DNA of 64,000 bases. Source: Tomocerus qinae (Eukaryota; Arthropoda; Collembola; Entomobryomorpha; Tomoceridae). The notes beneath the pieces are model-generated. The model did no database searches. It was not told where the DNA came from and saw nothing but the letters and a program-made list of their open reading frames with translations. Where the stretch lies: positions 40,155,909-40,219,908 of the forward strand of contig CM034547.1 in assembly GCA_020055645.1 (NCBI GenBank), read 5' to 3'. The position numbers and the translations under genes are program-made. Shown here one piece after another: positions 2,801 through 55,032 of the stretch. Position 1 is the first letter of the stretch; the number at the start of each line of letters is the position of its first letter.

Positions 2801-4469
2801 AAATAACAAAAAGCAAGCACGTATGCAGAACTGTGTTTCGGAGGGGGCTAGATTTCCAATAGATATTTTAAGGATATATATTCGCATATAATTTTTGGCA
2901 TTTTTTGAAGGAAATGAGTCAAAAAAGGCCTGAAATTTTTTGCTATTTTGAGAAAAAAATTCCCTTTTTCTTGGATTTCGGGGGGGGGGGGCTTCAGCCC
3001 GTAAAGCCCATCCCTAAATACGTCCTTGACAAAAAGTGCGTGAAATTGAATTAAATTTGCGCAGTGGACTTTAAAGTCTATTACAGTAGTGTAGGATCTT
3101 TTGGGGATAAATGGCCACGGTATGTCCTCAACAAAATATGTAATAGAGCCTTTAAAACCAATTTATTATTCCTCACGGAGAAGGTGTTATATACTTATTA
3201 CTATTACTAATGCACTTTGCATCGACGAGGCAGCCTTACTTAAAACTATACCTACAGCCTGCAGCGCTACATTAAATTATCTAATACTCAAAAATAAACA
3301 ATTTTCTGGCTGGATACAGTGTAGACCAATCCAGAAAATTATTATTTTTGGGCATAATTTGAACCTTAGAAATTGACCGTTGCTGGTAATATAAGGGTGA
3401 CAGAAAAGGTGATAGAGAATTGATGGAATGCGTGCAAAGTTAGCAGAGTGAGGTGGAACGGTGGAAGGACATGCGGATGGATGTATGGTGGCTTAAAGTG
3501 AAGATATACCTTTCACCTAATTCACAAAGAACTCATTTTTTCACCGACAGTGACCCTAGTCCGTAACACTAGGCCACGCCGTCACATCCCTCTCTGTACA
3601 CAGTACACATAATATGTAGGTCTTCCGCGGTTTGACTATTCGATCACTATAGTATAGGCAAAGAGATATCATTTTCTGGGCTTATAGATGGGCGTCCTTC
3701 TTCTTGTGTATCTGTAATCTGTACTTGGCAATTGTGAGTCATAGCAATTTCTGAAGCCAAACGATAAAACATAAAAGAGTGGCTACGAGTTCTCAGTAAG
3801 AACCTCTGGGTAGAAATTGGATTTGTTAGATTTATTAGACAGAGGCTGAGATAGAGCATAGATAAGCAGCCTTACTAGGTTAGTCTTTTGGCACACCTAC
3901 TGCCTATTACATACTCTGTTTATATGTTGAACATCTCTTGAATCAATGGAAACTTTCTCTTTTACTATCCTTCATCTTTAAGAGACAACGGTCTAGCATA
4001 TAAAATTTACTTTCCCCCCCTTTATAATTGTGTTTTTTGTTATTATTTTTGATACGCATGCATAATGTTAACTAATCAATTGCAATATACTTTTCCTTTT
4101 TCCGTAATCTGCATTTTTAAAATTTTCTTAACGCGATATAGCTATTTAAAGTTTAGAAATAAATAATAGCAGTAAATAATAATAATAATGTTTCAAATTC
4201 ACGATGAAATACCCATTCATGTGACCTACGGGTCACATAAAAGCTGCGTGGGCTTTTTCTTTAAATTAACATAGGACGGTTTATGGCATATAGAAAAGAA
4301 AGCATATAATATGTCGACTTATATCTACACTACAGTTGATGATCACAAATCGCATCATACTGCTAGACAGGAAAACAGCTAAGCTAGACATAATAAACCA
4401 TTGCACAAATATAAATATAATAGCTAAGAAGTTAATCCAAGTTAAAAAAACGTGACTCTTGCCTCTGAC

Positions 4470-4990
4470 CCGCATTAAGGCTATCTCGACGATGCGCAGA
4501 ACAGTGATAACACATCCCTCGTGGGGAAACAAGTTGTCATATTTTTCAAAACATGTACCACATATTTTATGAGACCTTATTGTGGCACTTTTTCCAAAAA
4601 ATCCCTGCAGTTTTCAAAATTGAGTAGTTTTTGAAGAGGTAGAAATACATGTGAAATGGGAATTTGACAAATTCGTCTTGTTCTCTGTTGTATAGGTATG
4701 AAAAATTAAAAGAAATAGGGCCACAACAAGCCCTCCAGAATTTTGTGCCCTATTTTTTCTGGTGCTACATTTTGAAATCTGTTGCTCAAATAGGGGCAAA
4801 AAATGTTCTACGATTTCCAATAATTCCAATACCTTTTCTTGAGGTTACACTCGTGATTGTGCCAATTTTTACTATGGAGAGAAAAGGCGCCAATTTAAAA
4901 AGTCACATTCTACTGCTTTGGTTTGTTTATTATCAAATCAAGCACCCCGTAGAAAAATAACTCATTTCTGGATGTCGCTAAGCAATCGTA
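4470..4990 (+). repeat. dispersed repeat R1, copy 3
   Basis: The longest direct R1 copy, beginning near GGCTATCTCGACGATGCGCAG and continuing to the segment AGCACCCCGTA and ACTCATTTCTG. Alignment with copies 1 and 2 is clear by eye across most of its length. The open frames at 4614-4829 and 4664-4960 lie in this repeat and are not conserved among the copies. Confidence 0.75.
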
Positions 4991-8579: not shown

Positions 8580-8745
8580 CGAGGACGTTGGCTAGCAGAC
8601 TTTTGGAAGATCGTTCTTTCATTTCTAGCTCGCGAATCTGATCCCGCATTTTGGCAGTTGCAGCCATTGCCTTTAAAGTGATTTTATCACCCGGACGACT
8701 CATCCTCAGAAACCATGGAAGCCATTGTAAGAATACGACTCGAAT
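8580..8745 (-). CDS. nAChRalpha7-like: nAChR exon 10 (cytoplasmic loop)
   Basis: A 166-nt exon after TTTCTACAG encoding 55 residues plus one base. It starts IRVVFLQWLPWFLRMSRPG, the amphipathic segment after TM3 conserved in alpha7-type subunits. A variable stretch rich in Ala, Met and Lys follows, then ELEMKERSSKSLLANVL, a block diagnostic of insect alpha5/6/7 loops. The donor is CTCG|GTGAGT, phase 1. The family continues with an acidic stretch, the MA helix and TM4; no such exon was recognised in the 8.5 kb to the left, so those lie outside the window. A long foldback repeat lies 108 bp before its acceptor. Confidence 0.95.
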
Positions 8746-13159: not shown

Positions 13160-13470
13160 CAAATTTTGATAGTCAACATTAATCAATTTTGATGTTCTGT
13201 AGATTTTGATAGTCATCACTAATCGATTTTGATTTTCTGTTGATTTTGATAATCAACATTAATCAATTTTGACTTTCTGTTAATTTTGATAGTCAACATT
13301 AATCAATTTTGATTTTCCTTTGATTTTAAAAGTCAGCATTAATCAATTTTGGTTTTCTGTTGATTTTAATAGTCAACATTCATTTTTTTATTTTCTGTCG
13401 ATTTTCATAATCAACGTTTATCTATTTTGATTTTCCATCTATTTTGATACTCAATGTTAATCAATAAATA
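13160..13470 (+). repeat. minisatellite, ~41-bp unit, plus orientation
   Basis: About seven units of TTTTCTGTTGATTTTGATAG plus TCAACATTAATCAATTTTGA with scattered substitutions. Each unit contains GTTGATTTTGATAGTCAAC, an imperfect palindrome, so both strands can form small hairpins. Confidence 0.85.
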
Positions 13471-14159
13471 TCAAAATAAACCAAATTTCCATTTTATATT
13501 CTATAGCACGGTCTCCTTTTCTCAGGCGAGCTTCTGTTACGGCTTGCTGTAGGTTTTTTTCTTTCGATATTGATAATTAACATTAAGCTATTTTGAATTT
13601 AAATTAATTTAGATAATCATATTTTATTTAATATATTTCGACTATTATTCTACCAAAAATGTACACATGGTCCCCTTTACTCAGGCGAGCTTCTGTTGGC
13701 TTGCTGTAGGTTTTAGCTCGCCGGATAAGGCAGCGTATAGAACCACACAGTCTGTCCGTACGTCCGTCCGTACGTCCGTCCGTCCGTCCGTCCCCACGAT
13801 AACTTTCGAAAGCAATGATGGATATTGACCAAACTTGGCAAAAACAATGCCTATGGACCACTGACGATCCCTATTGAATTGGGGGTAAATCGGTCTATTG
13901 GTTACTGAGATAACGCGCGCTCACTTTGTCTTCATTTTGAAATGAAAATTCAAGTCAAATGAAAAATTGGCATTAAATGGACATTAAAAGTTTAATTGTG
14001 TTTGCTAATAATTGTTAGGGATAGTATATAATATTTAACTCCGCTTCGACCAAATTTAATATTTTATAATAAAGTAAACATAACAAGAAAATAACTATTA
14101 TAGGACGGAAATAAATCTATTTCGCATTTATATGCAATTGATAGTCAAATTTATATTTT

Positions 14160-14560
14160 TCGAGTTACTTTTCATTTTGATAGTTAATATCAACCAATTT
14201 TGATTTTCTTTTGATTTTTATACTCAATATTAATCAATTTTTATTTTCTGTTGATTTTGATACTCAATATTAATCATTTGGGTATTTCTGTTGATTTTGA
14301 TACTCAATGTTAATCAATTTTGATTTTCTGTTGATTTTCATATTCAACATTAATCAATTTTGATTTTCTGTTGGTTTTCATAGCCAACATCAATCTATTT
14401 TTTTTCTGTTGGTTTTCATAGTCAACATCAATCTATTTTGATTTTCTGTTGGTTTTCATAGTCAACATCAATCTATTTTGATTTGCTGTTTATTTTGATA
14501 GTCAACATCAATCTATTTTGATTTGCTGTTTGTTTTTATATTGAATAATGAATTATATTA
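14160..14560 (+). repeat. minisatellite, plus orientation
   Basis: About ten units of the same family as 13160-13470. Later units shift to the subtype GTTGGTTTTCATAGTCAACA then TCAATCTATTTTGATTT, showing local homogenisation of variants within the array. Confidence 0.85.
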
Positions 14561-14699: not shown

Positions 14700-15240
14700 A
14701 ATATTGAGTATCAAAATTATAATGGATAAATGTTGACCATCAAAATCAATAGAAAATCAAAATAGGTTAACGTTGACTATGAAAATCAACAGAAAATAAA
14801 AATAGGTTAATTTTGACCATCAAATATAAAATCAATATAGATTAATGTTGACCTTCAAAAACAGCAGAAAATCAAAATGGAATAATTTTCACTACCAAAA
14901 TCCACAGAAATCAAATTTGGTTAATATTGAGAATTAAAATCAACAGGAAATCAAAATAGATTAATATTGAGTATCAAAATCAACAGAATCAAAATTGATT
15001 AATATTTAGTATCAAAATAAACAAAACATCAATTAATATTGACTATAAAAATCAACAGAAAATCAAAATTGATTAATATTTAGTATCATCAAAGTAAACA
15101 AAAAATCTAAATCGATTAATATTGAGTATCAAAACACACAAATTCAAAATTGATTAATACTGAATATCAAAATCAACAGAAATTCAAAATTGATTAATAT
15201 TGAGTATCAAAATAGACAAAAAATTAAAATCGGTTGATAT
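14700..15240 (-). repeat. minisatellite, inverted orientation
   Basis: Units read AATTGATTAATATTGAGTAT plus CAAAATCAACAGAAAATC, the reverse complement of the array at 14160-14560. Together the two arrays can form a very long imperfect double strand centred near 14.65 kb. Confidence 0.85.
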
Positions 15241-15299
15241 TGAGTATCATATATATACACTTTTTACTATCTGAAATTGTGATTGCCAAAAGACAGCAA

Positions 15300-16630
15300 A
15301 ATAATTCAACAATATAATAAAATTTGAGATAAAAAAAGTTATCGTGTAAAAAACGGACGGATGATTCTATAAGCTGCCTTATCAGGCGAGCTAAAAATAA
15401 TGAAATATGAAAGAAGATATGAAATAATATGATATAATATGATATAATAATATCATAACATTATGTATGAATTTCATAAAGATCGTCTTGAAAAATAGAT
15501 GTAAGCAGCAATTGCAACTTGCTCTAACAAATCAGTTGGCAAGTTAAACCTTTTCAAAATGCTTAAAGAAAAGTAGTAATTGTTCCACTGGCACCAAAAA
15601 ATAATCCTATTACCTCAAAAGGATAATTTATAGAATAAATTCTTTGGAGGTCCGGGATACAGGTTTCATAAATATTCGAAATAAATCTATTTTCATCGTA
15701 CGCTAGATATTTTCCGGTTTAATTTACTATACAATAAATTTGGTCGAAGCGGATTTAAATATTATATACTGTCAATCTAACAATGGATAGGAAACACAAT
15801 TGAACTTTCAATGTCAATTTAATGCCAATTTTTCATTTTGACTATCAAAATGAAGACAAAGTTAGCGCGCGGCATCTCAACAACCTATGGAGTAATGTGG
15901 CCCATTTTCAATAGGCTCTGTAAATCAAAATAGATTAATGTTGATTATCAAAATCGACAGAAAATCAAAATAAAAAACGTTGACTCAAAATCAACAGAAA
16001 ATCAAAATAGATTAACGTTAACTCAAAATTAACAGAAAATCAAAACAGATTAATTTTGACTATCAAAATAAACATTAAATCAAATTAGATCATTGTTTGC
16101 TATCATAATCAACATAAAATCAAATTAGATTATTGTTTGCCATCATAATCAACATAAAATCAAATTAGAGTATTGTTTGCTATCATAATCAACAGAAAAT
16201 CAAATTTGAGTAATATTGAGCATCAAATTTAAAAAAAATATAAATTTGACTATAAAATTGAATATAAATGCGAAATAGATTTTTTCAGCCCTCTAGTAGT
16301 TATTTTCCCGTGTTATTTGCTTTATTATGAAATCGTAATTTTGGTAGAAGCGGCATGAAATGTATACTATCATTCATTTATAGGAAACACAATTGAACTT
16401 TTGATATGCCCATTTTCTACTTTGACTATCAAAATGAAGACAAAATGAGCGCGCGGTTTCTCAGCAACCTATTGAACCAAAATGAACCTTTGTCACAGGT
16501 CTACAGGCATTGTTTTTGGCAAGTTTGGTCAATTTCCGTGAATACGTTCAAAAGTTACAGTGTTGGGGGACGGACGTACGGACAAACTGTACGGTTCTAT
16601 AAGCTGCCTTATTTAGGGGAGCTAAAAATT
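15300..16630 (-). repeat. inverted AGCTCGCC modules with minisatellite
   Basis: Minus-orientation modules end at about 15397 and 16628. Their characteristic blocks (AAAATGAAGACAAA, GCGCGCGG, GTTTTTGGCAAGTTTGGTCA, CGGACG, TATAAGCTGCCTTAT) are the inverse of those in the 11-13 kb copies. A degenerate inverted minisatellite fills 15915-16240. The 89-residue open frame at 16406-16675 is simply this module read in one frame. Confidence 0.75.
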
Positions 16631-16675
16631 GTTTCAACTCAAGTTTCCTCCTTCAAGCACTGTTCATTTTTGTAG

Positions 16676-16950
16676 TCAATATTAATCTAATTTCATGCAG
16701 TTTCTGTTAATTTTGACAATCTAGTCTACATGAACCTATTTTCAGTTTCTGTCAACTTTGACAGTCTAGTCAACATGAACCTTCTTTCAGGTTCTGTTAA
16801 TTTTGACAGTCTAGTCTACATAAACCTACTTTTAATTGCTGTTAATTTTGACAGTCTAGTCTACATGAACCTACTTTTAATTGCTGTTAATTTTGACAGT
16901 CTAGTCTACATGAACCTACTTTTAATTGCTGTTAATTTTGACTATTGTTA
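16676..16950 (+). repeat. tandem repeat, 45-bp unit
   Basis: About six units of TTGCTGTTAATTTTGACAGT plus CTAGTCTACATGAACCTACT plus TTTAA. The unit is 45 bp, a multiple of three, so one frame stays open and yields a 15-residue repeat peptide. The last three units are almost identical. It probably derives from the neighbouring minisatellite by a different expansion. Confidence 0.85.
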
Positions 16951-18229
16951 AGTTCATATTGACTATACTATCAAAATTTAATAACGAACAAACTAGATTA
17001 ATATGGGCTACCAGGAGAAAATCAAAATAGAATATTAGTGACCATCAAAACAAATTCAAAATATAATGATACTTACTATAAAAATAAACAAATGTAAATA
17101 TGACTTTAAAATTGAAAACAAATGCAAAATATATTTTTTATCTTTCTATAACTGGTGCTTTTCAATTTTATGTTCTTTATTTTTTACAAAATCTAAACTT
17201 TGGCAGACGCAATGACAGACGCGAAATGAAATAGTGTTCCACAATTTTGTTGACGCTTAATAGGAAACGAAATAGAATTTTTTTACCATCTATCATACCG
17301 GCTATCAAAATATAGAAATAGTGAGCGCAAGATATATTTGCAACCTATGAGAGGTTCGCGTCCAAAATCAATAGGGATCGTCCGATGTTTGATAGTAATG
17401 TTTCTGCCAAGTTACTATTTTCAAGAAGAAATTTTTATTGCGTTCCAATTTTGCTGAGACCGTGTGCTGTGTGCTGAGGCCGTATGGACGGACAACCTAT
17501 GTGGACCTATAAGCTTGCTTACACCGGCGAGCTAAAAATAACGGCAAGCAGTAACCGAAGGTTGCCTAAGTAAAGGTCAAATGTTACTTCATACACATTA
17601 TCTTTGGCAGGAAAAGTAGATATATATTTTGACTTGCTATAAACATAAACAGGGATTCAAAATAAATAAATATTGACAATCAGAATGAACCGAAATAGAA
17701 AGCAGATCATTACCGACTTTCAAAATGTACAGAAATTCAAAATCAAAATAAAGAATTATTCATTACCAAATTCGAAACAAATTCAAACCAGATTTACACT
17801 GACTAACAAAATCATCAGAAATTCTAAATAAAGTATTATTGATTATCATCAAAAATAAGATTAATTCAAAGCGGTCTATTTCGTTTTAAATAGTCTAATA
17901 ATAAATCTCAATTTTGGTAGAAGCAGAGTAAACAATTTTTTACTATCTATCAAAAATGTTTTTGGAAACGCAATATCTTAAAAAAGGAATAAAAAATAAT
18001 CAGTAATTCCAAGTATATCAATATTGATTATTAATCAATATATAAAAATAAACCTACAGCAAGCCGTAACAGAATCTCGCCTGAGTAAAGGGGATTATGT
18101 ACACATAATTTTGGTAGAATAATAGTAAAAATAGATATATTTTGATTGATGAATTTAAATTAGATCAGTATTGATCATAGATCAAAATATACCTACAGCA
18201 GGGAAGGCGATCGTGTGTACATTATTGAA
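16951..18229 (-). repeat. degenerate repeat module and spacer
   Basis: An old inverted module ends at about 17537 with GGCGAGCTAAAAATAACGGC. Around it lie degenerate minisatellite words (ACTATCAAAAT, AATCAACAGAA). At about 18055-18100 the inverse of the CAGGCGAGCTTCTGTTACGG motif appears. No gene is visible. Confidence 0.6.
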
Positions 18230-18990
18230 AACAAATAAAATAAAATTGACTAGTACTGACTATCAAAATAAAATGAAAATTTGGTTATTATTGACTATCA
18301 AAATAAAATAAAAATTGATTAGTGTTGATTATCAAAATAAAATGAAAATTGACTAGCAATGACTACCAAAATAAAATGAAAATTGGTTAGTATTGACTAT
18401 CAAAATAAAATGAAAATTGGATAAAATGAAAATTGATTAGTATTGACTATCAAAATATAATAAAAATTGATTAGTATTGACTATCAAAATAAAATGAAAA
18501 TTGACTAGCAATGACTATGAAATAAAAATGAAAATTGATTAGTATTGACTATCAAAATAAAATGAAAATTGATTAGTATTGACTATCAAAATAAAATAAA
18601 AATTGATTAGTATTGACTATCAAAATAAAATGAAAATTGATTAGTATTGACTATCAAAATAAAATGAAAATTGAATAAAATGAAAATTGATTAGTGTTGA
18701 TTATCAAAATAAAACGAAATTGACTAGTAATGACTATCAAAATAAAATGAAAGTTGGTTAGTATTGACTATCAAAATAAAATGAAAATTGATTAGTATTG
18801 ACTATCAAAATAAAATGAAAATTGACTAGCAATGACTATGAAATAAAAATGAAAATTGATTAGTATTGACTATCAAAATAAAATGAAAATTGATTAGTAT
18901 TGACTATCAAAATAAAATGAAAATTGATTAGTATTGACTATCAAAATAAAATAAAAATTGATTAGTATTGACTATCAAAATAAAATGCAC
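18230..18990 (-). repeat. minisatellite array, 34-bp unit
   Basis: Roughly 20 units of AATTGATTAGTATTGACTAT plus CAAAATAAAATGAA, with variants (GACTAGCAATGACTATGAAAT; GGTTAGTATTG) recurring in blocks, a sign of segmental duplication of several units at once. It is the most homogeneous array in the window and abuts a plus-strand AGCTCGCC end at 18994. Confidence 0.9.
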
Positions 18991-19890
18991 ATTTTTAGCT
19001 CGCCTCAGGAAGCAAGCTTATAGAACTGCACAGTCTGTCCGTCCGTCCGACAAAGCATATTGAAAATGGGCCACAATTTTCTATTGGTTAAGATACTGCG
19101 CGCTCACTTTCTCTTCAATTTGATAGTCAAACTGAAATTTGGGCATTAAAAAGTTTTATTGTGTTTTGCAAAGTGTTTTCAGGGCTCCGAGGTTCAGTTC
19201 AAAGTGGTTGCAAAGAACTGGTTGGGGGAAACCAGTTTTCTGGAGCATGAGATTAAATAATATTAAAATTAAAATTAAATAATATTGAGTATCAAAATAA
19301 ACAAAAAACCAAAATTGACTAATATTGAGTATCAAAATAAACAAAAAATCAAAATTGACTAATATTGAGTATCAAAATAAACAAAAAATCAAAATCGATT
19401 AATATTCAGAATCAAAATAAGCAAAAAATCAAACGATTAATATTCAGAATCAAAATAAGCAAAAAGTTAAAATTGATTAATATGGAGTATAAACAACAAA
19501 GAAAAAGAAAAATCTTAAATTTGATCGAAGCGTTATTTAATATTTTGTACTATCTCCTAACAATCCGTTGGAAGCACAATTGAACTTCTAATGTCCATTT
19601 AATGCCATATTTTCATTTTGACTATTAAAATGAAGACAAATAGAGCACGTGGCATCTCGGCAACCTATGGACCAATGTGGCCCATTTTCAATAGGCTTTG
19701 TCACAGGCCCATAGGCAATGTTTTTGCTAAGTTTAGTTGAAATCCATCAATGTCTTCAAAAGTTATCATGTAAACGGACGGACTGTGCGATTCTATAAGC
19801 TGCCTTTTCAGGCGAGCTAAAAAGAAAAATGTGTACACCGACCCCTTTACTCAAGCGAGCTTCTGTTTCGGCTTGCCGTAGGTTTTAATA
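18991..19890. mobile_element. AGCTCGCC element, complete inverted ends
   Basis: It starts TTTTTAGCTCGCCTCAGG at about 18991 and ends TTCAGGCGAGCTAAAAAG at about 19822, so the ends are inverted copies. Inside are a GTCC-repeat block, an inverted minisatellite (19250-19480) and a closing module with TTCTAATGTCCATTTAATGC and GCATCTCGGCAACCTATGG. An ACTCAAGCGAGCTTCTGTTT motif follows at 19852. At about 830 bp this is the most compact complete-looking member. Confidence 0.7.
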
Positions 19891-20326: not shown

Positions 20327-20436
20327 CCATTGGGACATTTCATGCGTGTCGGCCGACCGATGATGATAATTCAAGATTAAAATCGTTGAGACCACCGAGG
20401 AGGCTACCATGAACATGATACAATTGAAGTATGTAC
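20327..20436 (-). CDS. nAChRalpha7-like: nAChR exon 9 (TM3)
   Basis: A 110-nt exon after GATGTCTAG. GT completes the Gly codon, followed by [26 protein letters not shown] and [10 protein letters not shown]. The donor is TGG|GTAAGC, phase 0. It covers TM3 and the start of the cytoplasmic loop. The Gly at the exon 8/9 junction corresponds to the TM3 glycine (G275 numbering in thrips alpha6) whose change to Glu gives spinosyn resistance in insect alpha6; here it is glycine. The exon is isolated between introns of 9.5 and 11.6 kb. Confidence 0.96.
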
Positions 20437-23848: not shown

Positions 23849-24861
23849 GTAGTATTTGAGCTTAGTGAGCTTGCAGAGGGTTTATTGGCAGGTAGACGTA
23901 ACATAAGTCAATATAAGAACAAAAAATTGCTTTGCTTGGGTTGTTGTAAGTAAAAGTACAAGATAAAGGTATATCGCTTGCTACTTTGTACGTACACATA
24001 GACTAAGGAGGCCTGTGGCATATTACATTATGAAGTAGTGGAGTATACGGGGGTTATAATATAGTGAGTTTACGTAGTATACCAGGTTGGGGTATTATCA
24101 TTAGGTAGATGTAAGTACCAAAACCTACATAATATATATAAGTAGTACAGAGGGTCTATATCCATCGTGTCATCCCCGACGTATACTTATATACATTATA
24201 AATACATATTATGTATGTACTTAAGTATAGGTATGGTTACTTTAACAGGACAGATACAAATTAAATTACGAAAGAGAGAACAACAATATAGCTAGCGGAT
24301 TTGTAGAGATAGGTAGTAATGTAATTTACAGAGTATATAGTAAAAGTATATAATTGCGTTATTTATATAGTTGGTATATACCTAGAACGGGCAACGCGTC
24401 TGAAACTTGAGGCAGAGTCTCGGCAACGAGATTGTGAAATACGGTCAAAGAAAGTAAAATCGTCACCCCTTGGAGAAAGCCCAGGATCAAACAATCACAG
24501 TAAACAAAGAAACCAATAAGTTTACACACATCCATTACATGACATTAAATTACATTTCACAGAGAGACGGAGTTCAGTTTCAAAGAAAGAATAAAAAAGA
24601 GTCCTTCAAGTCTCAAATCAAATCATAGATAAGTGTGGGTGAGTCAGGAAGAGTCGGATGGATCCATCCTGACTGGCATTAACTAACACATAACTAGGAA
24701 GGAATGCCTCAATCCTCTATTCATCTTCCCCCCACTCCAAATTCTCTTTGGAGAAAACGAGTCAGAGAAAACATTCTTTGTTCCTACGCATAAGTAAGTG
24801 GCTTCATGGTTAAACCAACTATCCTATACCCTATCTGTTAATTAAACGTGGATGGAAAAGG

Positions 24862-27939: not shown

Positions 27940-29160
27940 ATGTAGGAATTAAATACATATGATTGGTTAAGGAATTAATTTGTTATGATTAGGAATAGAA
28001 TACATTTAATATGATTGGTGAAGGAATGCCAATTGAGGATTGGTGAAGGAATTCAAATTGATAATTGGTGAAAGAATACAAAATGATGATTGGTGAAAGA
28101 ATACAAAATGATGATTGGTGAAGGAATACAAATTGATGATTTGTGAAGGAATACATATTGATGATTTGTGAAGGAATATTATTGATATGATTTGTGAAGA
28201 AATATTATTGATATGATTGGTGAAGGAATATTATCGAAATGATTGGTGAAGGAATATTATCGAAATGACTGGTGAAGGAATATTATCGAAATGATTGCTA
28301 AAGAAATATTATTGATATGGTTGGTGAGAGAACTTAAATTCACAAAGTTGACTGAAGAATATAAATTCATAAAATTGGCCGAGAAACACATTTCATAAAA
28401 TTGGTGGAGGAATATATTTCAAAAATTGGCTGAAGAATATAATAGGACATGATTGGTGAAGAAATATTATTGATATGATTGAAGAAATATTATAGATATG
28501 ATTGGTGAATTATTATTATCGATACGGTAAGGGAAAGAAAAAATAGATAAATTGGTCAAGGAATATAATATGGCATGATTGGTGAAGGAATATTATTGAT
28601 ATGATTGAAGAAATATTATCGATATGATTGGTGAAGTAATATTATCGATACGGGAAGGAAAATAATAAATATAATAGGTCGAGGAACATAATTTCATGAA
28701 ATTGTTCGAGGAATATAATATGGCATGATTGGTGAAGGAATATAAAATCGTATGCTTGGAAATATAATTGTATGATTGGGGAAAGAATATTATTATGATT
28801 AGTGAAGGATTATAATATGGATTAATGGGTGAAGAAATGTAAAATAGTTTCACTGCCGAAGGATTAGGATTGGTGAAGGAATTTAATATGGCATGGCTGG
28901 TGAAGAAGAATAATATTATATGATTGGTGAAGGATTAGTGAATATATTTGATAACATAATATGGTATTATTAGTGAATGAGCATAAATGATGTTATTGGC
29001 GAAGGAATACAATTGATATAATAGGTGAAGGAATAAGGAACATAATTACTTTAATTGGGGAAGGAATATAACATATGATATGATTGGTAAGAGAATGAGG
29101 AATATTAATTGGAATGATTGGCTAAGAAAAGTTATTGATATTATGATGGGTGAAGGATTT
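27940..29160 (+). repeat. AT-rich minisatellite, ~26-bp unit
   Basis: About 1.2 kb of tandem units of the form GATTGGTGAAGGAATATTAT plus TGATAT. Units vary from about 22 to 30 bp and include variants with ATGGCATG, ATTTCATAAAATTGG and CGAAATGA. No frame is open throughout. It sits 0.75 kb downstream of the TM2 exon in the direction of transcription. Confidence 0.85.
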
Positions 29161-29900: not shown

Positions 29901-29987
29901 CTAGCAAAGGCACTGCATCTGAGGTTGCTGGCATTGTTTCCGCGACCATGTTTAAGAACACTGTTAAACTAAGTAATATTGTCACAC
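29901..29987 (-). CDS. nAChRalpha7-like: nAChR exon 8 (TM2, channel pore)
   Basis: An 87-nt exon after TTGACAG, encoding VTILLSLTVFLNMVAETMP and then ATSDAVPLL, with split Gly codons at both ends (phase 1 to 1; donor G|GTAAAT). This is the pore-lining helix with the gating Leu and the outer Glu ring of cation-selective receptors. Insect alpha6 genes have several alternative TM2 exons. I saw only one copy in this window, so in this gene the duplicated segment is TM1, not TM2. An open frame runs well past both splice sites, but only this part is homologous. Confidence 0.96.
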
Positions 29988-32588: not shown

Positions 32589-32783
32589 CTAGTGTGAGTT
32601 TTTCTCCGCACTCGTGCGGCAAGGTGAATCCTAGCAAAGTCATGGATGAAACCATGATGCCCGGAACAATTAGATTCACCAAGTAAAACAAAGTTCGGCG
32701 CTGAATACGCACGTAAAAGGTGACGTCGATGTACGGCTCCGAGCAGCACTGATAATACTTTACATTGCGCTTGTTTGTTAGAC
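32589..32783 (-). CDS. nAChRalpha7-like: nAChR alternative exon 7b (loop C + TM1, unsplit)
   Basis: A 195-nt exon after CTTATCTGTAG with donor G|GTATTC; it enters and leaves in phase 1 exactly like cassette 7a. It encodes [18 protein letters not shown], so it keeps the aromatic-X-Cys-Cys loop C, then TM1. It is divergent: Pro-Gly before the basic pair is Thr-Asn, the TM1 Pro-Cys is Pro-Gly, and the linker before TM2 is [11 protein letters not shown] instead of [11 protein letters not shown]. The selectivity residues Gly-Glu-Lys are kept. The reading frame is intact and both splice sites are good, so it is probably a used alternative rather than a dead copy; expression cannot be judged here. 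Confidence 0.88.
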
Positions 32784-35700
32784 CTACAGATAAGAATCAG
32801 TCCCATTTTTTTACAATCATCTTCAAAACTCTAAAAGTGCTTTATTAAATTATTATAGCACTGTTGTTATTCTTGCTTTACTTTAGACATGTAAATGGCT
32901 ATTTATTCTTCTGCACAAATTGCACTGCACAAATCAATACAAACTACTGAATAATTTTACAGCTTTCTCGTACACCAGAATGTTTCTTCTAACTAATGTC
33001 CCTTATATCAAAAGTATCTCTAAGTAGCTATTTAATTAAAATATTTATTTAGATCCTTGAGTAGTTTTAGTACTGGAGAGGTAATAAACGCTGTTATAAA
33101 ATAGTATTTCATTTCCATACAATCCTAGATACTTTCCTCACTATACTATTGCAAATTCAAAACAAGATTTGATGATGACATATGAGTAAGGAAATGATAA
33201 GCGGTATTTAAGTAATTCGATCTGAGTTTTCATGTTTGGAGGAACCAGGAACTTAAATTGAAGTAAAAAATATACACATAAAGGTAAACCTGACTTCAAA
33301 AACACATGCTAAGTATTATTTATACAATTCACCCCACAATAATGTTATCCCTACTCGTGATAAAATCATAAATTACATCTCTTCAATGTGCGTAAGGTTC
33401 AAGATAGTGTTTGGCAAGTTGATCTCCAATCCAGTCTTTTAAGAACAGAGTTTAAAATTGTTTCAGGAATAGCTAGAGTGGACAATGGACAAACTCTTTG
33501 CGTTAGTCTACCTAAATACTATATAAACGTAGTTTGACAACTTCATATCTGCTTTTAATTGATAATGTGCTATATAATTACACTTAGAGTCCGGTCCGGT
33601 TTAATCCGATTTTTAAGTCGAAAAAAAATCTGGATTTTATAAATGCAACTATACGTAGAGGAATCTTCTAATTCATTAATAGCTAATAGGTACCCACTAA
33701 CAAGTTGTCCATATCCACTAGTAAGTAATAGATATTTACTAGTAAGTACATTAGAATAGGAAGAAATTGTTATGGATTACGTACAAGTTGACAATTTGAA
33801 GTGTATTTGGCACCTGATGCCTTACAATACTACACGTATTTAATTGTAATTCATATTTATTGGATAAGTACTAGTCTGAAGTTGGGATAGATATTGTCAG
33901 AGTGCTACATACTTTTGAAAACCAAGCTGAGTGTCCTAATAGACAAATGGAATAGATGAAATAGTCGACGTGAGCATAGAGATAATTGTTTGGAAGGTCT
34001 CTGTAGATAATTAAAGAGTATAGCGAGAGTGGACGTTGAGTGAAGGTATAATGACAAGTGGGAATAAGTAGATAGGGATAGTAATTCATACACTCATTTC
34101 CTTGGGAGTAGTGGAAAAGATGTGCCTGTTGTACGTACATATGTATATGTTAGAGGACAGTGAGTGTGGATGGTGACGTAGGAGAAAGCGAGAGACAGCA
34201 GTCTCGTTGACTTTCTCTGTGAACTATCGACTTCCTGCTAAACTGTCGTAAGTTTTAACGACTGCGCTCGGCAACATACTCGATGGAACTCTTGTCCTCA
34301 CTCTATTAAACATTTAACACGAGTTAGCCTGCTACTTTTACTTTTCTACTAATGTAAGTGTCCAACGTGGCCATTAACAGTTTGCACAAACTTTCCCGAC
34401 TCCCTCCGTCTATACAAATACTCACCATATCTTAGTCAATGCTCATCTGCAAATGTATTCTAGATTTCTTCAGAGATCATATGTCAGCCAACTTTTCTAC
34501 TTCCCAGCACTGTAAAACTAACTCGGTAATGGCCAAGTACTCTGACAGTATTTATTAGTGAGTAAGCACACGGTCATGGACAGAATATTCATACCCACCA
34601 ACGATCCCATATTATATAAGTGTATACTGTACATGTGTATAATGAAATTTCAACCCAGCCATGCTATCTCTTCTCTTGATCTCTCTTACAGCAGATATGC
34701 AATAAGAACATGCATGAACCTTTATTATTCCGAGTGTTACACTACACTAACTGCAACTACTTACTACTCTCACTCCTACAAACATTCTCAATGTACAGTC
34801 CTGCCGAACTAAAACCTCACATTCCACGATTTCCCCCAAATTTCCTATCTACCTCTCTTTCTATCCCTAAATGTCGTAAAAGGGTATTATTGCTAAGCTA
34901 AAACAGGCGAGGAATAGGGCACCAAGATTTAAATACAACAGTCTTAATATAATGAACGTACTACGATATGAACGGTTTTGAATGGATGTACTTGAGCAGA
35001 CGTCACACATTCTCCTTTCTTTTTATCCAAATAAGTACATAAAAGACCTACATATACATGAGTGTGTTGGAGTCCAACTGCCAATACTCTAGTTATGAAT
35101 ATACGGCCTGTGAAATAATAGTATGTATTATCTTATACACTGCCTATAAATATAAATAGCATTTGTAATAATATACTATGTAGTATGGTACAAACTGGTA
35201 TAGATAACCTCCTCTCCATCTACCTCACCAACTTTCACAACCTTCATTTTCGAAGAGTTTGTGTGGTGAAAGCAAAGTGAAAGCATCTGGAGGCGCGATA
35301 AACGGAGAGTTAGGTAGTTGGCTGCCTATAACATATGAGAGTGAGTGAGTCTGCCTGGCCAACCACCAACCACTCGCTCACTCACTTACTCCAATGTCTC
35401 CTCTATTCATTCACATCTCGCTTTCTCCTAGCTCCTAGCACTTCTCTCGCCCAGATAGCCATTCCCAGCCACAGACATATATAACTACGTCCTGTACTTG
35501 TACAGTAAACACTGTGAAACAGTCAGATGAGTCTTCCTTTCCACATCATCTCTTAGATTCCCTCGTCTCTGATATTTACTTACTATATACTTGTCTTAAA
35601 TACAACCAGCATGTCTGGCTCAACCTCACTTACTCCTATACTCCCTCTTTAAACTTCCATCCAATACCATGAATTACTATGCGGTTTTACTTATGTATGT

Positions 35701-38632
35701 AATATTTATTCACATATTATATCCTACATAGCATAGATGGATAGGTATTTTATTGTGCTGCTTCAATTTACATTCTTTATATCCTACAGCATGTAGTTTA
35801 TACAGAATGTCTTAACTAAGTAACTGCAGGTGAGCTCATCCATCCTGCAAACAAAATATCTGCATGAAAAGCTGGTTTTACTCCCTCCATATTATATTCC
35901 CTGCTACCGTATCGTTACCCACGTTCTACTATTTGCACCAATTTTGTTTACCTGTTTACATTATTACATCAGTTATTAAAAATACAATGAATGTTATGCA
36001 TGAATACCTAAAATATTCATTTTTGCTAGCCCTTTCTCTCTTCTACTTGCTTAACGTAATTGATAAGTTTTTAAAAAAACTCCCAAGGTTGGCTGGCTAA
36101 GAGTTCTCTTTCTAGTAGAAAGTGTTCTGTTTTGATATTTTAAATTTCAAACTTCTGTAGAACAGAGTCTGTGCTCAGAAGTTAAAAAGTAATAACAAAT
36201 TAAAAACTTCCAGACGAGTAACCTTATCTAATAAGGGAAACGTTACAACCTTGGATACAGCCATAGATTACAATTTGCTTACCCTATGCTTACTATTATA
36301 AATTCAATTATAAGGTGATATTGTGACAACAAACGATGATTACTACGTAAAAAGTAAGAAGCAGGTATGAAAAGGAAAGAATTTTAAGATGTAATCTATG
36401 AGATGACTCTTGATTCATAGAAATTGTTATTCAGGTCTACTCTGTTGGAATGGATGAATGAGGGGGCTGATTTGAATGGATATAGGAAGGATGGGTAAGA
36501 GTTAACAAACATTGGGAGGAAGAAAGGAATAATTAGAAATTGTGAGTAGGTAGTGGAAGTAAATATGGAAATCTCAGGGTAATATTTACGAAGATATATT
36601 CCATGTGGCTCTGAGGGACTAACTCTAAATTACTATATATACCATACAGACACAAACCCCTATTGGCGTCGTACTTAGTTGCACACAGCTGACAATAGTC
36701 TGTATAGGATTGAATGGGAGTATTCAAATATAAGTGGAGTCTGTGTCGAATAGGCATGATAATGTGGAGTGAAATTAGATATGGAAATGAGAAAGGTGGG
36801 TTGACTAGTTTTCACCACTTGCCATAGCATATCGACTGCACTCACTCACATCCACCACTCACTCCCAATGAAAGAATGGAGAAACGGACGAAACTCAACT
36901 GTCAACTTCTAATATTATTATCTCCATATTAAATAAACATTCATAACAGGTAGGGATGAGTCAGCACACATTCTTCCCTTTCACTGCACACGGATACATC
37001 TCTCTACTGCTATAAGCAAAGGACAGTGGAGCGAGAGAAGGTTTCCACTCCTTGCACTGCAACATCCAGCAGATGAAATCCAATCGAAACGTGTAATCTC
37101 CTCGAGTGGAGTAAATAGATGGAGACAGACAAGGCAACAGAGAGGAGAAATTCAACTCAGACTTTCATCACTATGTCACATAATTATTTGGATGGTTGAA
37201 GATCCATCTTATAAGCACACGTATAGGTAACTTATACCTGCAAGTACTGATTCTGATTATGTAGTATAATACTTGGTTTCCTAATACAAAAGTTAGTGCT
37301 GTAATAAGTATTAGTAAGATGACACACATATATAATATTAGTATATCCCAGACAAATGGAGCATTATCACATTAGTCCATAGAATAAATAGAAGCCACGT
37401 CGGCGTAACGTAAAGTAGTACAAGGCAAGCAATAGAGAAGTATTTGTAATGAATGTATAAGCTTTGAGCAAGATCCCAATAGTAAAGAATTCCCTGAGAA
37501 ATCGAGTCTTGTACTAATATGTTTTTCATCAGCAGATGAGGAGGAGGAAGACTACTTGATACAGACAGAGATACTCTACAATGAATTAACTAGCGGAAGG
37601 GATATACGTCTACCAAGTATAAATATAGGTATATACTAGGTTAGGTACTACTAATGCTATGGTTTAAGTCTATAGTATATACTACAAATTCGCAAAATGA
37701 TTTAAATGGACTTGGCTGAACGTGCACTCTCTCAAAACTGAACCAAAAAGTTGTTTGTTCAGTCTGATCCGTTGGTTTAGTTTACACTTATTGTTAGTTG
37801 GTTCCGTTGATTGTCAACTTCTCTACAGCGAGAAAAATAAGATTCGTTCTTGCAAAATCGAGAATTGGGAAAAATGAGTTGAGTTCCGTGAAAAAAATCC
37901 ATTTAAGGACGGAGTGGATGCTAATGTTATGTACATAGGCTTGTTTGGCAACGCTTGGGTACTATCTAGTCGTAGGAGTTATGTTAATGTTGTGAGCAAT
38001 TGAGACAAATACCTACAATGAATGCAAAAACACGCACACCACACCAGACCAGCCGCAGGGCGGGCGGGACGCTCCGCACTCAAAAAAGATTATTCAATTA
38101 GTATTCCAAATTGTGAAACAGAGGTGCGTGGGTGGTGAGGTTTACAAAAGAACTACTTATGTCATACTGATAGATGGATTTGGGTAATAGAGTCTTACTA
38201 CTGGATCAAAAATATACGAGTAGAAATAAACGGGAATTAAATAAATTAGGTCAAAAATGTAGGCCCTTGCAGAGGGCTTAATTAACTAGTAAATGTAGTT
38301 TACTACATAAACAGGTGAAAAAATGGGGAATAGAGGAAGAGTAGTGTAGGAGAAATAGTTGGTGGTGTGTCGATTGGTATGCACTTGTGGGGATGGGATG
38401 TGGGTAGGTTTACTCGATGATAAAATTGGAAGGAGAGTGTGTGAATATTGGCAAAGTGAAGATTTTCAAAAATATCCACGGTGTGCGCACCTCAAAATCT
38501 TGTCGATTGTATTTTTGTTTGATGTTTGAATGTATTCGATTAAAAATGCTTGTGAAAGTTAGAATACGTATGAATGAGTAGTATGAATGAATGATTGGTT
38601 GAATGAAGGTTGTTTACAAAAAAGTCGTTTAC
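32784..38632 (-). other. intron between cassette 7a and exon 7b, 5.8 kb
   Basis: No exon, repeat array or other gene recognised. In isoforms using 7a this sequence and exon 7b are removed together. The open frames here are under 90 residues and resemble nothing I know. Confidence 0.65.
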
Positions 38633-38788
38633 CTAAAGATAATTTTTCTCCTGAATCGGGAGGCAGTGTAAACCCAAGCACGGCCATAGAGGCGATTAAG
38701 ACGCAAGGAACGATTAAATTGAAGAAATAGTATAGCGTACGCCTTTGTATGTTAACCACAAAAGTTATATCCACAAAAGGCTCTGGAC
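38633..38788 (-). CDS. nAChRalpha7-like: nAChR cassette 7a, exon iii (TM1)
   Basis: A 156-nt exon after ATTCATAG, starting with GT that completes the second vicinal Cys, then [22 protein letters not shown]1 with the N-L-I-V-P-C motif, and [14 protein letters not shown]. It ends with the first base of a Gly codon (G|GTAAAC), in phase 1. The sequence is very close to the protostome alpha5/6/7 consensus, including the Pro-Cys in TM1 and Gly-Glu-Lys at the cytoplasmic mouth of the channel that sets cation selectivity. The lack of loop C residues at its start is explained by two small upstream exons. Confidence 0.95.
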
Positions 38789-40252
38789 CTATGAATCCGA
38801 AAAAGGGGATTAGACTCCAAATCAAAAATAAGTCTCAACTCAACTCGTACAGGGTGTCGCAAATGTCTCAAAAATCTTCTCCAAAAGCTCCCAACAAACA
38901 ATTTAAGTGTACACAGTGCATACTACACTACTCCTTGTGTAGCAATAAATACAGGCCAAAGGTTAATAATGCCAGGTCAAAACACTTTCCTTCACTGTTA
39001 CCTTCAAGTCGCGCCTGTAAGCCTGTCACAAATAGATTCATTAACTAATGACTTGACTGAAAGGTGCATAAAAATCTTTTAAATCGTGACTTACCTTCCA
39101 GTGCAGAGCTTAGAGATGGCTTAGAGGCACGACTTAATCAGGTACCTCAGCAAATCAAAATAAAATTGACTCTCAAGTGTAGGCACATACCTGCTTTAGC
39201 TCCTTGCTACATACTTTTGTGCACGGGTCACTAATTTACAGTGACAGCATTTTTCCGTTCCGTAGCATTAAGTCAAGAGAGCAGGGAGAAAGTTCGATTA
39301 CATAGCAAAGCTTGTTAAGTAGTATGAGTAAGAAACATAGCGTTAGTATTGCTGCTTATATATATATACCTGCAAACGCATTATTTTTATTCCTGAACGC
39401 TAAGGCAGCGTTGAAATTAAGACTACATGTATAACTTAATTCGGTTTAGTTAAGGTTTGGAATTCTAATCCGGGCTGGCTACCACCCAAAACCATTTACT
39501 AGGATTTGTTTAAACGGGCGCAATAAGTAAATATCTCTTCGGTATTACATTTTTGTTCTTGAACTTATAATTATCACTTTCTGAACTTCTCTTTTTTAGT
39601 AATTTTAGCAAACTGTAGTTTCCCTATTAGTGATTTTAAGTGGTTATCGCCCACGATTGACTCCATACCTTCAAGGAAGCAATTTCCATATCATATGTTG
39701 ATCTTGGTCATCACTTAGTAAATTCATAAAAATTGGTACAGTACGAATCTCAGATTGCAAATACCAAATAGACAAGTTGCTTAATAATATTACATTTCAT
39801 AACTTAGAAACGTATACTGCCCACACAAATTAGCATCATCCTGTGTAATAAGTAAGTAGATGAACATTATTTTGCAGAGTAAGTGACACACTTGACCAGC
39901 CCCCTATGCATTTTTAGCCTTCAGCCTGTTATGAGCAGCATTGGCTACAAACAACTCAAACCATGTGATTTCGTAATACTTTTAGACTATTATTGTAAAT
40001 ATTGGATTGAAATTTTAAAAATTAGCATTTTAAGTTTGCAGAGTTTTTGTTTTGCATGCAGAGTAAGTGACCACGAACACGGAGGTTGAATCACATGGTT
40101 GTGTTTTTGATAAAGGAAGCATAATATCTGCGTGGATAAACAGAAAGCAACGTTTGCACCACCCTGCAGTTGAAATGAGATGTGCGTCAAGCGAGTTCAA
40201 AAGAATCGCCCAACAAAAATGAAAATACAAAAGTGTGTAAAAGTCGACTTAC
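38789..40252 (-). other. intron between microexon and TM1 exon, 1.5 kb
   Basis: Begins with the donor GTAAGTCG after the microexon and ends ATTCATAG. A fragment TACAGGGTGTCGCAAATGTC near 38850 resembles the end of the MITE at 23.5 kb. Nothing else recognised. Confidence 0.7.
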
Positions 40253-40259
40253 AGCAGGA
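40253..40259 (-). CDS. nAChRalpha7-like: nAChR cassette 7a, exon ii: 7-nt microexon
   Basis: A microexon TCCTGCT between an acceptor with a T-rich tract (ending TTTTTAG) and an excellent donor, GTAAGTCG. It encodes Ser, the first vicinal Cys and the first base of the second; the second Cys is completed by GT at the start of the 38.7 kb exon. With it, the junction reads F-Y-S-C-C-P-E-P, the alpha-subunit loop C signature. Without it, phase 0 from exon i would not match the phase 1 entry of exon iii. Together 32+7+156 nt equals 195 nt, the length of the unsplit alternative exon 7b. No transcript is available to me, so this is strong inference from phase, length and splice sites. Confidence 0.8.
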
Positions 40260-40350
40260 CTAAAAATTCAAAAATTTAAAAAATGGATTAGAATTATGCA
40301 GCGATGGAACAAATGGCACAAATACAGAAAAATTGAGATTATCGTCTTAC

Positions 40351-40382
40351 ATAAAATATAGCATTCCTGCGCCCGGGGACTC
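40351..40382 (-). CDS. nAChRalpha7-like: nAChR cassette 7a, exon i (start of loop C)
   Basis: A 32-nt exon preceded by a strong acceptor, a long T/C tract ending TTTTTTAG, and followed by GTAAGA. Two bases complete the Gly codon from exon 6, then it encodes VPGRRNAIFY. This matches the 'PGKRN..YY' segment leading to the vicinal cysteines in alpha5/6/7 receptors (vertebrate alpha7 has 'IPGKRSERFYECC'). It leaves in phase 0. The next exon is only 91 bp downstream. I found it because the TM1 exon at 38.7 kb lacks this segment; the length then fits exactly. Confidence 0.87.
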
Positions 40383-43424: not shown

Positions 43425-43500
43425 CTTTGAGATCCCACTCTCCGTTCGTTATGAAACTGCTGATGTCTCCACCGTCCTCTGATTGCAGTTGCAGGTCCAG
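43425..43500 (-). CDS. nAChRalpha7-like: nAChR exon 6 (loop F region)
   Basis: A 76-nt exon encoding 25 residues plus the first base of a Gly codon. It starts after GGTTACAG with LDLQLQSEDGG and ends FITNGEWDLK, the conserved strand just before loop C in alpha5/6/7 and vertebrate alpha7 subunits. The donor is AAAG|GTATGA, leaving phase 1. Both loop C/TM1 cassettes begin with two bases that complete this Gly codon (GA in 7a, GT in 7b), so this exon is the branch point of the alternative splicing. The intron from exon 5 is 168 bp. Confidence 0.94.
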
Positions 43501-43668: not shown

Positions 43669-43849
43669 CTGAAAACCATCGTAGGTCCAACTGCCGAATT
43701 TCATTTCACATTTCTGCTCATCGAAGGGGAACCACGTGATGTCAATTTTACACGTGCTCTTAAAAATTCCTGGAGGGATGTAAGAGCAACTGCCATTATT
43801 TTTGACCACAACATTCGTAGGATAGGTTCCATCAAACCCTTCGTCGGCA
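43669..43849 (-). CDS. nAChRalpha7-like: nAChR exon 5 (Cys-loop, loops E and B)
   Basis: A 181-nt exon; its first base completes the Ser codon split from exon 4 and it then encodes 60 residues. It begins [12 protein letters not shown] and contains a glycosylation site in NNGSC, the [11 protein letters not shown] block and the Cys-loop. The Cys-loop has two cysteines separated by exactly 13 residues and the diagnostic W-F-P-F-D centre. It ends with SWTYDGFQ, the loop B motif. The homologous reading requires the exon to stop after the CAG of Gln, where the donor reads CAG|GCAAGC, a GC rather than GT 5' splice site. The rest of that donor matches the usual consensus, as is typical of GC-AG introns. 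Confidence 0.96.
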
Positions 43850-43975: not shown

Positions 43976-44085
43976 CTATTGTACATTAAAACATCAGGCT
44001 TCCAAATTCGATGTGGTGGGATGCGGAGGTCAGTAATGTTCCCGTACTCACTGCTATTCCATCTCAGATTGACGTCATTCCATTC
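43976..44085 (-). CDS. nAChRalpha7-like: nAChR exon 4 (ligand-binding loops D and A)
   Basis: A 110-nt exon encoding 36 residues plus two bases of a split Ser codon (AG|T). It starts after CTACTTCAG with EWNDVNLRWN, the loop D region, and ends WKPDVLMYN, the loop A motif with its conserved Trp, Asp and Tyr. Two potential N-glycosylation sites are visible, N-S-S and N-I-T. The donor is AG|GTCAGC. The intron to exon 5 is only 126 bp, compact compared with most other introns here. An open frame extends far beyond both splice sites (to 43873 and 44355), but the flanks do not resemble the family and are intronic. Confidence 0.95.
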
Positions 44086-50068: not shown

Positions 50069-50113
50069 GAATCGCAACCAAATTGTAGTGATTAGGAGTT
50101 GATTCTTCTCGTC
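50069..50113 (-). CDS. nAChRalpha7-like: nAChR alternative exon 3b
   Basis: The second 45-nt exon 3 copy, encoding DEKNQLLITTIWLRF. The acceptor is GTAAAAG before GAC and the donor is TTC followed by GTAAGT. Nine of 15 residues match copy 3a; the changes are I/L at position 6 and several in the last six residues (N-T-W-L-N-L versus T-I-W-L-R-F). The change from Asn to Arg near the end introduces charge in the beta2 region, close to the subunit interface and the extracellular-membrane coupling zone in this family. The acceptor has a weaker pyrimidine tract (TATAAAATGTGTAAAAG) than 3a, so its use may depend on regulation (inference). It lies 4.9 kb downstream of 3a and 6.0 kb upstream of exon 4. 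Confidence 0.86.
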
Positions 50114-54987: not shown

Positions 54988-55032
54988 CAAATTTAGCCAC
55001 GTATTGGTTATAAGAATTTGATTCTTTTCATC
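54988..55032 (-). CDS. nAChRalpha7-like: nAChR alternative exon 3a
   Basis: A 45-nt exon encoding DEKNQILITNTWLNL, the conserved N-terminal beta1/beta2 segment of nAChR subunits that usually follows 'QIIDV'. The acceptor is TTGTAG before GAT and the donor is TTG followed by GTAAGT. It enters and leaves in phase 0, so it joins directly to exon 4, which begins Glu-Trp-Asn-Asp. It is the upstream member of a pair with the exon at 50.07 kb; the two have the same length and phase and must be alternatives, since using both would duplicate the segment. Duplicated exon 3 is documented for insect alpha6 subunits. It is too short to be found by ORF calling. Confidence 0.88.

Follow-up and report, generated by a model that had tools for sequence, protein, structure and literature searches.

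Structure of the locus

Why does a nicotinic acetylcholine receptor (nAChR) gene of the springtail Tomocerus qinae offer two exon options for the same part of the subunit, namely loop C, the first transmembrane segment (TM1) and the beginning of M2, and are they used as alternatives? The window, by which we mean the whole analysed stretch of 64,000 nucleotides, holds 13 exons of this gene on its minus strand (3a, 3b, 4, 5, 6, 7a1, 7a2, 7a3, 7b, two TM2 exons, 9 and 10). Upstream of the region in question lie two copies of exon 3, which covers the loop D region (DEKNQILITNTWLNL at 54988..55032 and DEKNQLLITTIWLRF at 50069..50113), exon 4 (43976..44085), exon 5 with the Cys-loop (43669..43849) and the constitutive exon 6 (43425..43500), which is homologous to alpha7 and ends in phase 1 (CTCAAAG|gtatga). 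The donor of exon 5 at 43669 is of the GC type (CAG|gcaagc). Downstream are two copies of the TM2 exon (VTILLSLTVFLNMVAETMPATSDAVPLLG at 29901..29987, starting in phase 1, and VTILLSLTVFHNLVAETLPQVSDALPVLG at 24382..24468), exon 9 with TM3 (20327..20436) and exon 10, which begins the TM3-TM4 loop (8580..8745) and is 98% identical to Folsomia alpha7 over 55 amino acids. Exons 1 and 2 and TM4 were not located within the window, a third type of TM2 exon (SLMIADALPQTSEAIPLLG, as in P0003 and P0006) is absent from it, and Rfam yielded no matches at gathering scores. Likewise, tblastn searches with both exon-7 peptides and Folsomia alpha7 detected no third copy of exon 7 in the window.

Between exon 6 and the first TM2 exon lie the two options, which we term 7a and 7b. 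The former is split into a 32-nt piece encoding GVPGRRNAIFY (7a1, 40351..40382), a 7-nt microexon TCCTGCT that completes a Ser-Cys-Cys with the vicinal cysteines (7a2, 40253..40259) and a 156-nt piece encoding the remainder of loop C, TM1, the M1-M2 linker and M2 up to position 4' (7a3, 38633..38788); together these amount to 195 nt, with ag|..|gt around every piece. The latter is a single unsplit exon of 195 nt (32589..32783, bordered by ctgtag|..|gtattc), which encodes an alternative loop C, TM1, M1-M2 linker and M2 to 4'. Both options take exon 6 and pass to the TM2 exon in phase 1, and the reading frame stays open through exon 9 by either route. The coordinates that the first-pass annotation had given for 7a, 7b, the end of exon 6 and the start of TM2 proved exact when the splice sites were checked, and its description of two 195-nt options with phase 1 on both sides and intact frames holds. 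The two are homologous neighbors of equal phases and equal length, as is typical of duplicated exons, and are identical at 38 of 66 residues and 111 of 195 bases; this likeness is not due to chance, since a tblastn search with the locust isoform P0006 recovers 7b with an E-value of 3e-29 and the large 7a piece with 1e-24. The vicinal cysteines occur in both, as YSCC in 7a via the microexon and as YQCC in 7b. At the tyrosine position of loop C the 7a of the window has a phenylalanine (CCPEPF), as against a tyrosine in 7b (CCSEPY) and in Folsomia 7a (CCPEPY). The domains PF02931 and PF02932 score well over the cut-off in one 7a product and in one 7b product.

The microexon is the sole candidate of the form AG-NNN-TGY-T-GT in the 1562 nt between 7a1 and 7a3. 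Single-base shuffles of this stretch produced any such candidate in 125 of 2000 cases and one with a GTAAG donor in 4 of 2000, and the 66-residue gap-free match to the Folsomia alpha7 P0147 requires x-Cys-Cys at this very point. Skipping the microexon alone leads to a stop, while skipping 7a1 and 7a2 together (39 nt) keeps the frame and takes away the tip of loop C with its Cys-Cys pair. Contigs P0001, P0002, P0004 and P0005 have 7a in one piece in their translated frames, and in the window it is split twice, so that the two introns isolating the microexon look like later gains. Like alpha6, the gene, an alpha7, has two copies of exon 3 and two of the TM2 exon, which together with the exon 7 options allow eight isoforms in principle.

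Identity of the gene

The first-pass annotation had taken the gene for alpha6, but its constitutive exons place it in alpha7. In a full-length search (best 120 of 3647) the 323-residue query matched the Folsomia candida alpha-7 isoform X1 (P0147) at 90% over its full length, and the author-named alpha7 proteins of Apis (P0173) and Periplaneta (P0204) at 80%. We then relied on a tree of 38 rows built from exons 3 to 6 and 9 to 10, with exons 7 and 8 excluded and rows P0094 and P0102 left out. Here the window joins Folsomia alpha7 with support of 100/99, within a 21-row alpha7 group (99/94) that includes decapods and a barnacle. On the other side of the 99/94 branch, a group of 8 (97/85) contains the five named alpha6 rows but not the window, which rules out an insect alpha6 identity. 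The database label 'alpha-7' is used in both groups (for example, P0085 from Cloeon groups with alpha6), and hence we went by labels that tell alpha6 and alpha7 apart. Judged by these relationships, the gene is an arthropod alpha7 orthologue, sister to the alpha7 of Folsomia candida.

Phyletic distribution and age of the exon pair

The first-pass annotation had proposed a comparison with related species, and the exon pair indeed recurs in hexapod and crustacean alpha7 models. Searches with the 7b stretch of the window (45 hits) and with that of the locust (best 120 of 635) recovered 7b-type copies, among the matches listed, from the insects Periplaneta, Blattella, Zootermopsis, Cryptotermes, Schistocerca, Anabrus, Timema, Nilaparvata, Rhodnius, Polyplax and Thrips and from the crustaceans Homarus, Panulirus, Macrobrachium, Armadillidium, Trinorchestia and Amphibalanus. 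With a divergent copy in the aphid Sipha, found in the full-length search (best 120 of 3647), these 17 genera bring the 7b-type copies to proteins of at least 18 arthropod genera. None came from Holometabola among the matches listed (including the best 120 of 635), which cover proteins rather than genomes. Both copies are present in alpha7 models of cockroach, termite, locust, katydid, stick insect, planthopper, kissing bug, louse, decapods, isopod, amphipod and barnacle, and 7a adjoins 7b in most of the models that contain 7b. The last 21-residue stretch of 7b in the window is identical to that of locust and cockroach, and a protein from a metagenome contig (P0015) is 81% identical to the 7b of the window, its last stretch again being identical. 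The 7b exon itself is not unseen, as public databases already hold gene models containing it.

The alternative use that the first-pass annotation had proposed is supported by these hexapod and crustacean copies and by two models from Thrips palmi, X1 with 7b only (P0032) and X3 with 7a only (P0199), whose 26 differences over 546 columns all fall in exon 7. Isoform names with an X denote automatic predictions. The Folsomia model P0147 and Periplaneta P0204 are both of the 7a type. Only one full-length 7b-only model was found in the protein database, whose clustering at 90% may hide others.

To the age of the pair speaks a tree of exon 7 itself, with 63 rows (49 different) over a mere 66 columns, so that many of its forks stay open. 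In it the 26 rows of 7a or alpha7, which span crustaceans, springtails and insects, fall into a single group (98/93), and 22 rows of 7b lie on one side of a branch with support of 77/75, which recurs in 84% of 200 bootstrap trees. Labelling by nearest reference had given some crustacean 7b copies as 7a-like or alpha6-like, and these were reassigned by position and tree. In AU tests, with groups named after the tree had been seen and with contigs counted in the hexapod set, a clade uniting hexapod 7a and 7b was rejected (p 0.0007), the corresponding crustacean clade was borderline (0.057) and a single 7b clade was not rejected (0.29). Going by this tree, 7a is one old lineage across hexapods and crustaceans, and the pair most likely stems from one duplication before these crustaceans and hexapods split.

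Alternative use versus joining of the two copies

We favor, with a probability of about three in four, the interpretation that the pair arose by tandem duplication and is alternatively spliced, so that loop C, TM1 and early M2 are exchanged as one block. The pair appears to be real and old, and it is probably used in alpha7. We infer that each transcript in this springtail would take one copy, 7a by default and 7b where a regulator favors it. The resulting 7b product would be an alpha7 subunit that keeps the Cys-Cys pair but differs in loop C, in TM1 and, by a Ser/Thr exchange, at pore position 2' of M2. Altered gating, permeation or block would be the expected effect, and agonist affinity might be changed too.

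In the first-pass annotation equal length and phase had served as an argument for mutually exclusive use. This argument falls, because the 7a+7b join is also open in frame in the window, as is a skip of the whole of exon 7, so that the reading frame cannot enforce exclusivity; the common 195 nt is more simply explained as inherited exon length. Moreover, nearly every model containing 7b also contains 7a, and 19 models join the two directly, including Schistocerca X4, Nilaparvata X12, Rhodnius X2, Zootermopsis X1, Panulirus X2 and Amphibalanus X2. Together with the in-frame join in the window, these models would fit a gene in which 7a and 7b are normally spliced together, so that the loop C/TM1 block occurs twice in a lengthened subunit. 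We regard this as unlikely, for a second TM1 helix should upset the downstream topology, and automatic concatenation in the two-copy models is likely, though not proven, given that 9 of the 19 two-copy models reaching TM2 (a set that overlaps, but differs from, the 19 directly joined models) also string together at least two TM2 exons, 3 of the 9 being from Timema species. The spacing between the copies also bears on this point. As inferred from translated frames, it is 21 nt in contigs P0004 and P0005 and 42 nt in P0014, a biased sample retrieved since the gap was open and in frame. An intron would not fit into 21 nt, and a gap of 42 nt is at or under the usual minimum, so that joint inclusion could be blocked in these three contigs; in the window the spacing is 5,849 nt. 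The AlphaFold model of the joined Schistocerca form has a pLDDT below 50 over residues 131-325, which counts for little in a model that is poor as a whole (mean pLDDT of 52.9, the 7b-only thrips model being poor as well at 57.8).

Alternatively, 7b might be a relic kept by descent and unused in this springtail. Its weak donor, the 7a type of the model from the closest named relative (Folsomia P0147) and the lack of 7b in Holometabola among the best 120 of 635 matches are all compatible with disuse. However, a relic would hardly be expected to present an open 195-nt frame, both splice sites, the Cys-Cys motif and a last stretch identical to that of locust and cockroach, nor to find a counterpart at 81% identity with the same last stretch in P0015, and we consider disuse improbable. 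Least of all do we credit an exon of another gene, or of a pseudogene, that came to lie in the intron by accident. The length of the intron would allow this, and nothing further speaks for it; against it, the strand and phases of 7b match those of the alpha7 gene, 7b adjoins 7a in insect and crustacean alpha7 models, and tblastn with alpha7 proteins finds no receptor exons around 7b beyond those listed above.

What the exchange would alter in the subunit

The comparison of columns on which we relied comprises 25 pairs, one from the window and the others from 24 proteins, in which a copy counted as 7a or 7b solely by its position; it includes 8 distinct 7a and 20 distinct 7b sequences. The Thrips pair, which is spread over two proteins, and the second match in P0058, which belongs to a beta-like subunit fused into that model, were excluded. 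Three columns have disjoint residues over the 25 pairs. The pore position 2' of M2 (column 64, which is residue 240 in the numbering of the human alpha7 chain, with the glutamate at -1' being 237) is serine in all 25 first copies and threonine in all 25 second copies; TM1 column 35 is phenylalanine in 25 of 25 7a copies and never so in 7b; and TM1 column 50 is valine in every 7a, with leucine or methionine in 7b. Columns 46 and 49 each fail in one pair (24 of 25 differ), the former being alanine in 25/25 7a and serine in 24/25 7b. An earlier hand-picked comparison (8 + 10) had given columns 35, 46, 49, 50 and 64 as those without a shared residue. Loop C columns 2, 5, 8, 9, 10 and 12 differ within 25, 22, 24, 24, 23 and 21 of the 25 pairs, respectively (loop C columns being shifted by one in Nilaparvata 7b, which has one extra residue), but the changes go to different residues by lineage and no loop C column differs uniformly.

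A wider comparison drew on 132 7a segments (39 distinct), 31 7b segments (26 distinct, including pieces from the incomplete models P0012, P0013 and P0014) and 117 others (61 distinct); single-copy 7a segments were called in it by the ASMA motif, so that there is some circularity in its counts for columns 46 and 49. In this set the M1-M2 linker changes from PDS to HEC in most insect and springtail 7b copies. All 61 distinct alpha6, chelicerate and other segments have threonine at 2', and for this reason 7b looks like the copy that retains the older state at this position.

Position 2' lines the narrow part of the pore. As columns 35 and 50 of TM1 and position 2' differ uniformly and the loop C columns do not, gating or permeation would seem at least as likely a target of the exchange as affinity. 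The first-pass annotation had expected agonist affinity and gating to change together; of this, a change in affinity is possible, given that loop C differs within most pairs, but the uniform differences are limited to TM1 and 2'. Beyond this, we can offer only tentatively a broader picture, which we hold to be less probable than its negation, in which the pancrustacean alpha7 is a combinatorial gene whose exon 7 acts largely as a pore switch (TM1 and M2 to 4'), with the separately alternative exon 8 giving the rest of M2 and loop C being retuned in each lineage; the chemistry of the pore would then depend on two choices. The switch would have been kept since before the crustacean-hexapod split and lost in Holometabola, and the split 7a would add an in-frame state here that skips the Cys-Cys tip. 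Most work on insect receptors rests on Holometabola.

If the pair is used, springtails, hemimetabolous insects and crustaceans would have a second type of alpha7 receptor, which fly, bee, beetle and moth seem to be without. The cloned alpha7 of Periplaneta (7a), for example, would then stand for one side only, and pharmacology or ecotoxicology based on it may miss the other. The exon pair would also offer a natural test of the roles of TM1 and 2' residues in the alpha7 channel.

Relationship to known alternative exons

The alternatives described for insect alpha6, in the accessible portions of the reports, are exons 3a/3b in the loop D region and 8a/8b/8c for TM2 (PMC1919356, PMC2064938). The present pair resembles them in consisting of tandem-duplicated, frame-preserving exons of an alpha7-like subunit that are older than the insect orders (PMC1919356, PMC2064938); unlike exons 3 and 8 of alpha6, the alternative here is the loop C/TM1 exon and the gene is alpha7. 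Exons 4 and 4' of insect alpha4 offer another parallel, being an alternative that alters the ligand-binding and assembly regions of one subunit (PMC2045683, PMC2064938). The alternative exon 7 of Bombyx alpha8 is likewise a duplication and carries the same number, but it spans TM2-TM3, stems from a recent event (86% identity) and belongs to another subunit (PMC2045683). In Tribolium GRD splicing also alters loop C of a Cys-loop receptor, but this is a GABA-type subunit, and the change comes from insertions at alternative splice sites with no duplicated exon (PMC2064938). We found no alternative loop C/TM1 exon of an nAChR in the accessible portions of the open literature, including PMC2045683, PMC2064938, PMC1919356, PMC8471617, PMC3444433, PMC12700902, PMC10906874, PMC11343199, PMC5096308 and PMC7419010, a scope outside which most subscription papers lie. 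Within these bounds the pair looks like a familiar type of splicing device at a site new for it, and like a receptor switch that is old and has drawn little attention.

Splice signals and intron sequences

Simple counts at the splice sites favor 7a. The pyrimidine tract of the first 7a acceptor scores 17/17, and that of 7b 10/17, which is ordinary for the gene (range 7 to 17); by consensus counts the 7b donor, with 5/9 matches, is the poorest among the 13 exons. Pairing between introns did not rise above shuffles: of 12 dinucleotide shuffles for each of five intron pairs, 7, 1, 3, 7 and 9 equalled or beat the best ungapped complementary stretch. We also considered inverted pairs as a device; 2 of 5 flank 7a, but these cross each other and lie amid CTTTCTCC-like motifs, and they were set aside.

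The octamer CTTTCTCC and its counterpart GGAGAAAG occur 48 times in the whole window (26 + 22), where base composition alone would predict about 1.4. Arrays of approximately 40-nt units (34 nt in one) lie in the intron that separates exons 9 and 10, at 13163-14540 and 14713-19506, in both orientations; by eye these are reverse complements of each other and could fold into a long RNA hairpin. An imperfect tandem array of 25-26 nt units (ATATGATTGGTGAAGGAATATTATTG) lies at 27944-28692, in the intron between the TM2 exons. Finally, a similar coding-like stretch (ICGTCFKKY / FLFPMG..) is found at 1010-1288, 2281-2576 and 4281-4613 in both orientations and is probably a dispersed repeat.
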